Of a DNA stretch of 64,000 nt, positions 1,178 to 58,325 are shown piece after piece. Position 1 is the stretch's first letter. Each line of letters opens with the position of its first letter. Under the pieces are notes generated by a model. The model was not told where the DNA came from and made no database searches. It saw only the letters and a program-made list of their open reading frames with translations. The stretch spans positions 1 through 64,000 of the forward strand of contig JAJFIL010000308.1 of the NCBI GenBank assembly GCA_021774965.1, given 5' to 3'. Source of the stretch: Alphaproteobacteria bacterium (GTDB lineage Bacteria; Pseudomonadota; Alphaproteobacteria; JAJFIK01). The position numbers and the translations under genes are program-made.

Positions 1178-3073
1178 ATGGATATGGATTTTGACGTCAT
1201 TATTATTGGAGGCGGGCACGCGGGCTGTGAGGCTGCGGCTGCAGCTGCGCGCATGGGGGCTCAATTCGGCCTGAAGACGGCGCTTCTAACCCACAAGCTC
1301 GATACCATTGGCGAGATGTCATGCAATCCGGCGATCGGGGGCCTGGGCAAGGGTCATCTGGTGCGGGAGATTGATGCGCTGGACGGGGTCATGGGCCGTA
1401 TAGCGGATGCCAGCGGGATCCAGTTCCGCATGCTCAATAAGCGCAAGGGCCCTGCCGTGCGCGGGCCCCGCTGTCAGTCTGATCGCAAGCTTTATCGCGA
1501 AGCCATGCAGGCGGAATTAAGCTCTACAGCCAATTTGACCTGCCTCGCTGCTGCCGTCGAAGATCTGATCGTCGAGGGTGGCGTGGTTTCGGGCGTCATC
1601 TGCGCTGGCGGCACCCGTTATGGCGCTCGAGCCGTCGTGCTGACCACGGGGACGTTCCTCAAAGGTCTTATTCATATTGGTGAGGAGCGTATCCCGGCGG
1701 GGCGAATGGGCCGGGGGGATGGACAAGAAGAAGCGCCTGCCATCGGCCTCTCAGATCGGCTCTATGGCATGGGGCTCACGATGGGGCGGCTCAAGACCGG
1801 CACGCCTCCGCGCCTTGATGGAACGACCATCAATTGGGATGCCCTGGAAGAACAGCCCGGAGACGCACCGCCTGTGCCGTTTTCCTTCCTGAATGATGCG
1901 ATCAAAGTGCCTCAGGTCCCATGTCACATCACCAAGACCACAGAAGAGACCCACAAGATCATCGCGGACAACCTTCATGTGGCGCCGGTCTATTCCGGTC
2001 AGATCGATGGGGTGGGTCCGCGGTATTGTCCTTCCATCGAGGACAAGGTCGTCAAGTTTCAAGATCGCACCAGTCATCAGATCTTTCTTGAGCCTGAGGG
2101 CCTGGATGATGACACCATCTATCCCAACGGCATTTCCACCAGCCTGCCGCTTTATGTGCAGGAGGCCTTCCTGAAGACCATCCCGGGGCTGGAGGAGGCT
2201 GTCATCCTGCGCCCTGGCTATGCTATCGAGTACGATTATGTGGATCCAAGGGAGCTGAAAGCCACTCTGGAAGCCATCAAGGCACCGGGTCTGTATCTTG
2301 CGGGCCAGATCAATGGCACCACAGGGTATGAAGAGGCAGCAGCTCAAGGCCTCATGGCGGGGCTCAATGCAGCCCTGAAAGTGGCGGGGGAGGAGGCCTT
2401 TATCCTTGACCGCGCCGACGCCTATATCGGGGTGATGATCGATGATCTGGTAACGCGCGGGGTTTCCGAGCCCTATCGCATGTTCACCTCGCGGGCGGAA
2501 TATCGCCTGACCCTGCGCGCTGACAATGCGGATCAGCGGCTCACGCCTCTGGGCATCAATTTGGGCTGTGTCGGTAGTGCCAGAGCCCAGGTGTTTGAGA
2601 TGAAAGCAGCTGAGCTGGCAGCTGCCCGGGCGCTTATGACCGCGAGCACCATGACCCCCAATGAGGCCAAGAAACAGGGGCTCGCCGTCAAGCAGGATGG
2701 ACGCCGCCGCACGGCGCTGGACCTTCTGGCGTATGATACGATCAGCCTTGAAGGCCTAGCTCAGATATGGCCAGAAATGGCAGAATTCAGCCATTTAGTA
2801 GCAGAGCAAATCGAGATTGACGCGGCCTATGCAGGCTATCTGGGGCGTCAGGAAGCCGACATTCTGGCCTTCAGAAAGGACGAAGCTTTGGTTCTGCCCA
2901 CTAATATAGACTACGCCGCCATCAACGGACTTTCCAATGAAGCGCGGAACAAATTAGCTGCTGCCATGCCGTCCACCCTTGGTCAGGCCGCGCGCATTGA
3001 TGGTATGACTCCGGCGGCCTTGACGATCCTCCTGAATGTTGTGAAGAAGGGCAATGTCCGCCGCACCGCCTGA
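1178..3073 (+). CDS. mnmG: tRNA uridine-5-carboxymethylaminomethyl(34) synthesis enzyme MnmG (GidA)
   Basis: FAD motif [44 protein letters not shown]; gene order. Confidence 0.98.
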
Positions 3074-54445: not shown

Positions 54446-54874
54446 ATGTCGGACCCATACATCGTTTACCCAACTTCTGCGAAGGAGCTGAACGAGCAGG
54501 TTCCTGAAGAGGTTCACTATTACTTTAATGAAGCGCAGAAATGTATTGGCGCAAATGCAAACACTGCTGCAGTTGTAATGTGTCGAGCGGCCCTCGAAGC
54601 AATCGCAAAATCAAAGCTCACTGGCACCCCATCAAAGAAGCCTCTTGCGAAAATGGTCGCGGAGCTGAAAGCGCAGAATACAATTAACAATGACTTGGAA
54701 GAATGGTTTGACGGCCTAAGGGTTCTTGGGAACAAGGGGGCGCATGCGTCTGGGCATAAGCCGACTAAACGAGATGCCGCCGACGCGGTTGATTTCGTCC
54801 TTGCCCTATCGGACTACATTTTTACCTACAAACAAAAATTCGACGACTTTAAGAAACGTCAATCTGGCTCATAA
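54446..54874 (+). CDS. DUF4145-domain protein, possibly N-terminally truncated
   Basis: YYFNEAQKCIGANANTAAVVMCRAALEAIAKSKL...LEEWFDGLRVLGNKGAHA; upstream coding-like sequence in shifted frames. Confidence 0.75.
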   Translation: MSDPYIVYPTSAKELNEQVPEEVHYYFNEAQKCIGANANTAAVVMCRAALEAIAKSKLTGTPSKKPLAKMVAELKAQNTINNDLEEWFDGLRVLGNKGAHASGHKPTKRDAADAVDFVLALSDYIFTYKQKFDDFKKRQSGS

Positions 54875-55681
54875 CGTGATATCCATCAACACCGGCACGT
54901 GGTCCGACGGCCTCTCCCATCCCCTCGCATCTGTCAGGATACGGATGTTTCCTGATGCTTCGGCCAGAGCCGGGGTGACCCAGATGTGATCCAGTCTGCG
55001 GCCTTTGTTCGCTGCGCGCCAGTCCTTCGCGCGATATGACCACCAGGTGTAAAGCTTTTCAGGTTCCGGGGTTTCTTCCCGCATCACGTCCACCCATTTG
55101 TGGGAGGCCTGAAGGGCGTCCATGTGTTCTACCTCGATAGGTGTATGGCTGACAGTTTTAAGAAGCTGCTTGTGGCCCCAGACGTCGTGTTCCCGCGGGG
55201 CGATGTTAAGATCCCCCACCATCACCAGTTTGTTTTTCGTCTTTGTACGTCGTTTGCCGAACATCTCCGTCATCTCGGTTAGGAAATCCAGCTTGTGAGC
55301 AAACTTTTCATTCACGGCGCGGTCGGGCTCGTCGCCTCCCGCAGGCACATAAAAATTGTGCAGCTCAAGGCCTTCGTGGGGCCCGCCGTCCAACGTTACC
55401 GCCACATGGCGGCTGTCGCCTTTTTCGCAAAAGTCGCGCTTGGTGGTTTTGGCAAAGGGCACGCGGCTGACGGTGGCGACCCCGTGATAGCCCTTCTGGC
55501 CATTTACGGCGATATGCTCATAGCCCATTTCCGCGAAGGCTTTGGTAGGAAAGGAGCCATCTTCGCATTTGATTTCCTGCAAACAGAGGATATCGGGGGC
55601 ATAGCCCTTGAGCAGGTCTTTAACCAGCTCGATGCGCAGGCGAACGGAATTGATGTTCCAGGTGGCGATGGTCAGCGTCAT
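54869..55681 (-). CDS. xth: Exodeoxyribonuclease III
   Basis: TLTIATWNINSVRLR; DILCLQEIKCED; VMVGDLNIAPREHDVW; RLDHIWVTPALA; SDHVPVLMDI. Confidence 0.96.
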   Translation of the reverse strand: MTLTIATWNINSVRLRIELVKDLLKGYAPDILCLQEIKCEDGSFPTKAFAEMGYEHIAVNGQKGYHGVATVSRVPFAKTTKRDFCEKGDSRHVAVTLDGGPHEGLELHNFYVPAGGDEPDRAVNEKFAHKLDFLTEMTEMFGKRRTKTKNKLVMVGDLNIAPREHDVWGHKQLLKTVSHTPIEVEHMDALQASHKWVDVMREETPEPEKLYTWWSYRAKDWRAANKGRRLDHIWVTPALAEASGNIRILTDARGWERPSDHVPVLMDITL

Positions 55682-55846: not shown

Positions 55847-56479
55847 TTAAAAAATATTCAGGGTCATGCCCGCCACGCCCATGGGCCAGCGCCCCTGGGT
55901 GAAAAGCTGGTAGCGGGCTGAGAAAGGGTGGTCCTCCTCGCCGGCCAGAAGCACCAGCATGGCGGTGTGGGTGGCCTGGACGGCGGCGCCCACCGCCGCA
56001 GTCAGGATCTCCCGGTCTTCCAGATCGGAAAGATGCGCCATCTCATCAGCGGCGGCCTTGATCATGGGGGTGACCGTGGAGATGGTGAAGTTCTGAACCA
56101 CCTCAAACTCTTCGTCGCTCAAGGTCTCGAGCGCCAGCATGGTCAGATCAGCCCGCAGGCCCTCTTCTGCCGCCCAGCCGTCGCTGTCCCAGTCCAGGCT
56201 AGCTGCCGCAGCGCCAGCATCCTCCCAGCTCGAGACCCGGGCAGGTTCGGCGTGGGCAAATCCCAACCCGTCCAGGAACTGGCGGGCAGCCGCCTTGTCG
56301 TCCTTGTTCAGAACATCTCCCAGGCGCGCGAACCAAGGCACTTGGCTGGCCCCGCTGGCAAAGCGCTGGATCACCGCTATCGCAGGCTGACGCTCAATCA
56401 GCTCCTCAATCAGGGCCTGATGAAGCTCGGCCTCGTCTTCATCGTTTTCTTCAGGGTACTCAGCGGTGGGATCTTGCAT
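55847..56479 (-). CDS. Conserved hypothetical protein
   Basis: 210-aa acidic ORF with coding-like composition and no opposing better ORF. Confidence 0.6.
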   Translation of the reverse strand: MQDPTAEYPEENDEDEAELHQALIEELIERQPAIAVIQRFASGASQVPWFARLGDVLNKDDKAAARQFLDGLGFAHAEPARVSSWEDAGAAAASLDWDSDGWAAEEGLRADLTMLALETLSDEEFEVVQNFTISTVTPMIKAAADEMAHLSDLEDREILTAAVGAAVQATHTAMLVLLAGEEDHPFSARYQLFTQGRWPMGVAGMTLNIF

Positions 56480-56662: not shown

Positions 56663-56697
56663 AAAAATGGCGCCCGACTTAGGGCTAGTCGGGCGCC
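56663..56697 (-). terminator. Intrinsic terminator (minus strand)
   Basis: GGCGCCCGACTAGCCCTAAGTCGGGCGCCATTTTTAT. Confidence 0.85.
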
Positions 56698-56812
56698 GAT
56701 ATGCGCGTCTAAGCGCTCGGCACTGGGAGGGGATGTTCCAGTGCCTCCGAACGGCCCGAGGATCTGCAAGCGGGGGGGCAACGCTGATCCGTTGGTTCTG
56801 CCGTTCGGCAAC
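56663..56812 (-). ncRNA. Candidate small structured RNA
   Basis: Minus strand: TTGCCA-17 nt-TACATT promoter-like boxes (56842-56847, 56819-56824), internal GGCACTGG/CCAGTGCC hairpin, 11-bp terminator stem GGCGCCCGACT/AGTCGGGCGCC followed by ATTTTTAT. Confidence 0.55.
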
Positions 56813-57241
56813 GAAATTAATGTACCAAAAAACCACCCGTTTGGCAATGCTTTTCTCAGGGTTTCTGCGGGGTTGAGGGCCTCTCTGGGCCTTGGCAGAA
56901 GGCCTCATGCGCGTGCCGCGTGTTGGCTCTGGGGCGCTTGGGGTTGTGCTTCGGTCGCCACAAGTGTGTTATCAAATGGTTAACGTGCGACACGCGGGAT
57001 TCAGAATTTGCCGGAAATTGGCGGTCTTCAGAGTCGTGAGACAGGCTTTGAATCGGTGAATTCTGTTAATGATATTTATGCAACAACTTAAGGAAAAAAC
57101 CTTTTCGGGTTGTTGGGCCGGGTGATCAAGTTCTCGTCTGGCGAGTGAAAAAAAACTAAGGGCGGTCAATCACCCGGCTATTTGGGGCCTCTTGGAAGAG
57201 GAGTGATGGCGGTCAAAGCTCTCAAAGAGCCTTGAGACACC

Positions 57242-57506: not shown

Positions 57507-57540
57507 AAAAGGCCGACCAGTTTGGGGCTGATCGGCCAAG
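57507..57540 (-). terminator. Intrinsic terminator downstream of lolA
   Basis: Minus strand GGCCGATCAGCCCCAAACTGGTCGGCCTTTTTT. Confidence 0.8.
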
Positions 57541-57674: not shown

Positions 57675-58325
57675 CTAGTTGAAAATATCGCTGTCGTCAT
57701 AGTCGGGAAAGCGAAACAGGTCCCGGGGCAGATCCTCGACCTCTGTCACGTCGCGCAAAGCCACCGTGGTCCGGCGCCCTTGAGCATCCACAACCACCCA
57801 TTGGCGCAGCTCCAGGCCCGGGTCAGAGAAGATCATGGTCAATTGACCCTGGGCAAAGCCGCTGTCCTCTGTGGCCACAATATGAAGCTGGCCCGGCACT
57901 CGCTCAACGGCTGTGATATTGGCATCCGAGGTCAAATCGACTTCCCGGCGCAGGAGAACCCGAAGCGGGGTGGAGCCGATGGGATATTGGCTCACGGTCT
58001 CCATCTCTGAGTTGTCGATGCCCACAAAGCTGCCGTTGGAAATAAAGGTCAGCGGGATCGGCGCGTCATATTCAAACCGCATGCGCGTGCGCTCGGCGAT
58101 ATAGAAGTTGCCTTCCGAATAGCCGCCGCCTGTATCCGAAATCTGGATGAAGCGCCCGGAAAGAAAGCCTATTCCGTTGAGATACTGGTTCACCCGCTCA
58201 AGATCAGCGATATCCTGGGCCGAAAAATTACCCTGCGCGCTGGCCGGTATTGATGAGCCCAGCACCGAAAACCCAAGTATAACAGCGACCGTCAGCCGCT
58301 TTAGCCCGGTTAAAAACACGTCCAA
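57675..58325 (-). CDS. lolA: Outer-membrane lipoprotein carrier LolA-like protein
   Basis: Signal peptide; LNGIGFLSGRFIQISDTGGGYSEGNFYIAERTRMRFEYD; adjacent to ftsK. Confidence 0.9.
   Translation of the reverse strand: MDVFLTGLKRLTVAVILGFSVLGSSIPASAQGNFSAQDIADLERVNQYLNGIGFLSGRFIQISDTGGGYSEGNFYIAERTRMRFEYDAPIPLTFISNGSFVGIDNSEMETVSQYPIGSTPLRVLLRREVDLTSDANITAVERVPGQLHIVATEDSGFAQGQLTMIFSDPGLELRQWVVVDAQGRRTTVALRDVTEVEDLPRDLFRFPDYDDSDIFN

Follow-up and report, generated by a model that had tools for sequence, protein, structure and literature searches.

A small RNA (sRNA) gene lies on the minus strand between lolA and xth in the window (i.e., the whole 64,000-nt stretch of alphaproteobacterial DNA analyzed in this study), and the comparative evidence indicates that it is a real sRNA gene. 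Its product is very probably a free-standing sRNA and the counterpart of RusT, which would pair through a C-rich loop near ribosome-binding sites with the aid of Hfq and repress envelope and transport mRNAs. In C. crescentus, RusT (CCNA_R0199) is the 118-nt product of a gene that lies between lolA and xth; this sRNA is bound by Hfq, and its conservation was reported only among close Caulobacteraceae (PMC11005374). Judged from structure and synteny, the window RNA is a predicted RusT-family member far outside the Caulobacteraceae that possesses an extra conserved C-rich loop. It should be noted that the source genome is a draft of 319 contigs with an estimated contamination of 7%.

Organization and predicted structure of the sRNA gene

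The element occupies positions 56847-56661 of the minus strand, where inspection of the sequence revealed all of its parts from the promoter boxes through the terminator. The features of the locus, in the direction of transcription, are:

57675..58325, minus strand: lolA (PF03548), upstream neighbor of the sRNA gene and synteny marker
56842..56847, minus strand: -35 box TTGCCA (sequence; all 30 non-redundant homologs have a TTG at this distance upstream)
56819..56824, minus strand: -10 box TACATT, 17 nt after the -35 box (sequence)
56663..56812, minus strand: predicted sRNA transcript of the RusT family, about 150 nt, four stem-loops (fold; model score of 124.8 bits; homologs)
56747..56808, minus strand: SL1, long imperfect hairpin with outer stem CCGAACGGC/GCCGUUCGG and inner stem GGAUC/GAUCC (fold; covariation z of -12)
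56772..56778, minus strand: C7 run in the SL1 apical loop, candidate second seed (sequence; homologs)
56719..56745, minus strand: SL2, hairpin with stem GGCACUGG/CCAGUGCC (fold; covariation z of -9)
56727..56737, minus strand: SL2 loop AACAUCCCCUC, candidate target-pairing seed that matches the RusT seed, nt 45-57 (AACCUAUCCCCUC) (fold; PMC11005374)
56703..56716, minus strand: SL3, short GCGC hairpin in the place of the Hfq-contacting stem-loop of RusT (fold; Hfq role suggested by analogy)
56669..56697, minus strand: SL4, intrinsic terminator hairpin of 11 bp (fold and terminator scan; pairs changed on both sides in the model-fitted alignment A4)
56668-56661, minus strand: tail after SL4, AUUUUUAU (ATTTTTAT as first listed) (sequence)
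55847..56479, minus strand: gene for a conserved hypothetical protein between the sRNA gene and xth, found in many alphaproteobacteria (no Pfam or NCBIfam match; homologs in the same place)
54869..55681, minus strand: xth, exodeoxyribonuclease III (TIGR00195, above cut-off), synteny marker

The original prediction had placed in this region promoter boxes TTGCCA-N17-TACATT on the minus strand, a segment that can pair with a downstream one, a hairpin exposing a C-rich loop, a C-run and an 11-bp GC-rich terminator, with no credible CDS. The boxes were located at 56847-56819; the pairing of the two segments corresponds to SL1, in which, in DNA letters, CCGAACGGC pairs with GCCGTTCGG and the apex holds the C-run within GTTGCCCCCCCGC; the exposed loop is that of SL2, which in full reads GGCACTGG-AACATCCCCTC-CCAGTGCC; and the terminator spans 56697-56669 plus its tail. 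The minus-strand ORFs that overlap the sRNA were without a Pfam match.

The minimum free energy structure, which includes SL1, SL2, the terminator and the small SL3, had an energy of -74.4 kcal/mol and a z score of -5.97 and was equaled by none of 200 shuffled sequences. SL4 possesses the longest stem among the eight terminator-like sites found (2.4 expected). Another strong terminator-like hairpin, followed by T6, is found at positions 57511-57537 of the minus strand, about 140 nt past the end of lolA, and separates lolA from the sRNA gene.

Conservation of the promoter position

Taken alone, the promoter match was at the level of chance, with one found and 0.5 expected in 2 kb. Among the 30 non-redundant homologs, all had TTG within the same 19 upstream positions, compared to 29% expected in shuffled sequences, and 21 had TTGAA upstream, compared to 2.5%, although these homologs are not independent and the nominal p value is therefore too strong. 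The TTGCCA of the window is at the place of the conserved TTG. As judged from these sequences, the position of the putative promoter is clearly conserved across homologs, and the window promoter is predicted to be sigma-70-like. We infer that transcription starts near position 56812.

Covariation of the paired arms

Compensatory change was examined with an alignment-free test, in which each arm from 30 homologs that were less than 80% alike was paired either with its own partner arm or with the partner arms of other genomes. The outer arms of SL1 had a mean pairing energy of -19.1 kcal/mol with their own partners vs. -12.0 kcal/mol with foreign ones (z of -12), and the own partner was the best in 20 of the 30 homologs. 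The corresponding z for SL2 was -9, while the control z values, obtained after reversing, shuffling or misplacing the arms, varied from -0.1 to -2.5; what little signal was left with reversed arms is taken to reflect shared base composition. In a MAFFT alignment (A3), 15 pairs were changed on both sides vs. 8.0 in shuffles, and pairing fell from 90% to about 40% when partners were slid. The model-fitted alignment A4, which is biased towards structure and includes one likely false row, had both-side changes in all 32 pairs (268 cells vs. 79 in shuffles). Because the A4 counts lean towards the model, the alignment-free test and A3 are regarded as the main evidence.

The covariance check on homologous intergenic regions that the original prediction had named found strong compensatory change in both SL1 and SL2. 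The element is best read as a free-standing sRNA that would act in trans and exposes C-rich loops.

Distribution among alphaproteobacteria

By BLASTN against 59 genomes, full relatives were found in two genomes only, both of the same genus as the window. Examination of 80 xth loci from GTDB genomes for an upstream core revealed that GGAUCAGCGUUGCCCCCCCGCUUGCAGAUCC or a close variant recurs upstream of xth in Aquisalinus, Parvularculaceae and further lineages; it is placed between lolA and xth wherever the contig holds both, and each relative with the core has the same hairpins. Covariance model R1, which was built from 12 seed sequences, none of them from Caulobacter, was searched against 81 sources and gave matches in 47 of them at an E of roughly 4e-4 or lower; Parvibaculum, Hyphomicrobiales and Hyphomicrobiaceae are among these. 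Genome-wide, R1 matched 37 of 386 genomes of the class, with a single match apiece; in this search a first-look filter scored only eight candidates per genome, so that misses are uninformative. R2, a model trained on 42 matches, matched 39 of the 386.

The matches are spread over the alphaproteobacteria and for the most part follow lolA and precede xth. At least one of lolA, the hypothetical gene and xth was beside the sRNA in 26 of 30 retrieved loci, some of which are from R1 seed genomes. In the order to which genome G183 belongs, R1 matched 20 of 41 genomes, and a marker gene was present in all 20 new loci except L167, whose match, a GC-rich second match in genome G449, looks false. In one lineage (L079, L082, and L111), CACAUCCCCUCCC is found in the first hairpin and ACCCCCCUCC in the second, an apparent exchange of the two loop types compared with the window RNA.

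Probable identity with RusT of Caulobacter

RusT folds into four stem-loops, has a conserved seed at nt 45-57, including C53, in the SL2 loop and contacts Hfq at nt 73-84; NtrX represses its expression, iron starvation or zinc induces it, and RusT in turn represses mRNAs of TonB-dependent receptors and ompW in trans (PMC11005374). For comparison, the genus of genome G441 was taken as Caulobacter because 29 of its 31 genomes carry RF01530 (CC3664), an RNA family that among control genomes matched only Caulobacter vibrioides. A single conserved RNA was present in almost every lolA-xth intergenic region retrieved from this genus and its family. In the C. crescentus-like genome G461, the RNA from GCAUGGCG to the U tract is 118 nt long, and its nt 45-57 are AACCUAUCCCCUC, with C53 among four Cs, in agreement with the published features of RusT; given that the start at GCAUGGCG was our choice, its identification as RusT rests on the combined landmarks.

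The window RNA and Caulobacter RusT share the strand and the lolA-xth site, four stem-loops in the same order of which the last is the terminator, and an SL2 loop with a UCCCCUC seed (AACAUCCCCUC in the window, AACCUAUCCCCUC in G461). They differ in that the window RNA is about 150 nt rather than 118 nt long; its SL1 is longer, with a C7 loop, whereas Caulobacter RusT is without a C-run; its SL3 is a GCGC hairpin; and a hypothetical gene separates it from xth. With a threshold of E ≤ 0.001, R1 found the Caulobacter lolA-xth RNA genome-wide, with no use of synteny, in 5 of the 31 genomes (E of 1e-4 to 8e-4) and weakly in the rest, and the G461 copy scored 26 bits. Beyond SL2 and the terminator, the sequence link to RusT is weak and leans on synteny, and convergence can produce GC-rich terminators and C-rich loops repeatedly. 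Most probably, the window RNA and Caulobacter RusT represent one and the same gene.

Gene neighborhood and the possibility of a cis-acting leader

In the window, lolA, the sRNA gene, the hypothetical gene and xth follow each other in this order on the minus strand, and the neighbors of the sRNA are ftsK, lolA and xth. Given that the sRNA of most homologs precedes the hypothetical gene and xth on the same strand, and that about 190 nt lie between the end of its terminator and the start of the hypothetical gene, the element might instead be a cis-acting leader or attenuator of these two genes that produces no separate RNA. This is unlikely. In three genomes (L101, L104, and L108; group f4), the gene after the sRNA is convergent and, by a reading of its translation, alkB-like, and in L103 and L106 it is a convergent gene that reads as aminopeptidase-like. 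The sRNA is not considered a leader of xth because the next gene is convergent in the f4 and f127 genomes, where the predicted sRNA persists without xth behind it. The Caulobacter counterpart RusT, moreover, acts in trans (PMC11005374).

Comparison with other RNA families

At the gathering score, Rfam matched neither the window nor any of six homologous loci, and in the literature that was searched for a lolA/xth-linked sRNA, the RusT paper (PMC11005374) was the sole relevant report. RusT is absent from Rfam. The best Rfam match of the window RNA is RF01530, over its full length (26.7 bits, E of 0.03), and R2 scores CC3664 at 27.5 bits (E of 0.014). CC3664 resembles the window RNA in its 5′ hairpin with a C-run loop, a UAUCCCCUCC segment (also given as UAUCCCCUCCCC) and its terminator. 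The window RNA could be an additional CC3664-family RNA rather than RusT, a reading that we regard as slightly less probable still than that of a leader. The score of 26.7 bits falls short of the gathering score of 60, RF01530 matched neither the genus-mates of the window nor another homolog (L029), and in G461 a distance of about 41 kb separates CC3664 from xth, whereas the window RNA has the lolA-xth site of RusT. Membership in RF01530 was rejected on these grounds, and CC3664 is possibly a distant paralog of the window RNA.

In Caulobacter, a second C-rich RNA of similar plan and with its own terminator is found within about 150 nt after CC3664 (L168, positions 1501-1641 and 1697-1860), and paired matches to RF01530 occur in many Caulobacter genomes, which suggests that the CC3664 pair is a tandem duplication. 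The sRNA of a genus-mate (L003, positions 1504-1584, minus strand) weakly matches the Burkholderia anti-hemB RNA RF02837 (24.5 bits vs. 49.5), probably by virtue of a shared C-rich architecture.

The alphaR8 family (MmgR and SisA-D) is also distributed throughout the class, and its member SisA represses a large regulon (PMC12559287). Its anti-Shine-Dalgarno-like core UUUCCUCCCU is CU-rich and resembles the SL2 loop of the window RNA, and an intrinsic terminator is common to both. That core, however, is single-stranded below a weak hairpin and its genes mostly adjoin that of N-formylglutamate amidohydrolase (PMC12559287), whereas the window core UCCCCUCCC forms the loop of a strong hairpin at lolA/xth; UUUCCUCCCU itself was not found in the sequence of the window sRNA. 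It is thus very unlikely that the window RNA belongs to alphaR8. GsrN, an alphaproteobacterial sRNA, likewise pairs with mRNA through an exposed 5′ C-rich loop, but it is usually linked to the general stress locus (ecfG-nepR-phyR) and driven by sigma-EcfG (PMC5869019). The exposed C-rich loop is shared with the window RNA; the ftsK/lolA/xth neighbors and the sigma-70-like promoter TTGCCA-N17-TACATT of the latter excluded identity with GsrN. Finally, while GC-rich intergenic DNA folds readily and the promoter scan by itself is at chance level, a functionless chance structure is hardly conceivable in view of the fold z of about -6, the strong covariation and the conserved loops, promoter position and synteny.

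Proposed mode of action

As a RusT counterpart, the sRNA would be transcribed from its own minus-strand promoter, fold into four hairpins and end at its intrinsic terminator. By analogy with the action of RusT on TonB-receptor mRNAs, it most likely acts through Hfq-assisted pairing of the C-rich SL2 loop AACAUCCCCUC with purine-rich sequences around ribosome-binding sites, through which the translation of envelope and transport mRNAs would be repressed; the C7 loop of SL1 may join the SL2 loop in target pairing. The same analogy suggests that disturbed iron homeostasis would bring about this repression. The candidate target class of TonB receptors is represented by only six genes detected in the genome of the window; their seed energies averaged about -12 vs. 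-9.4 (sd of 3.4) for 50 window genes, which is only slightly better, and the gene starts are uncertain.

Implications for the RusT family

The two C-rich loops raise the possibility, to which we assign an even chance, that this is a hitherto undescribed class-wide sRNA family that ancestrally had two C-rich seeds (i.e., the SL1 C-run and the SL2 UCCCCUC) and that Caulobacter RusT is a shortened, one-seed descendant. If so, a single RNA would be able, by means of its two loops, to engage two target sets or to contact one mRNA at two positions. Further questions are whether the iron/envelope role is ancestral and what the second C-rich loop, which Caulobacter RusT lacks, contributes. What had been known as a regulator of a single bacterial family appears to extend through the alphaproteobacterial class, and the RNA is placed at one ancient locus in Parvibaculum, Hyphomicrobiales, Parvularculaceae, Aquisalinus, Hyphomonadaceae-like and many other lineages. 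This placement would make RusT one of the few sRNAs that can be followed throughout the class by both structure and synteny, and it would supply Rfam with a missing family.
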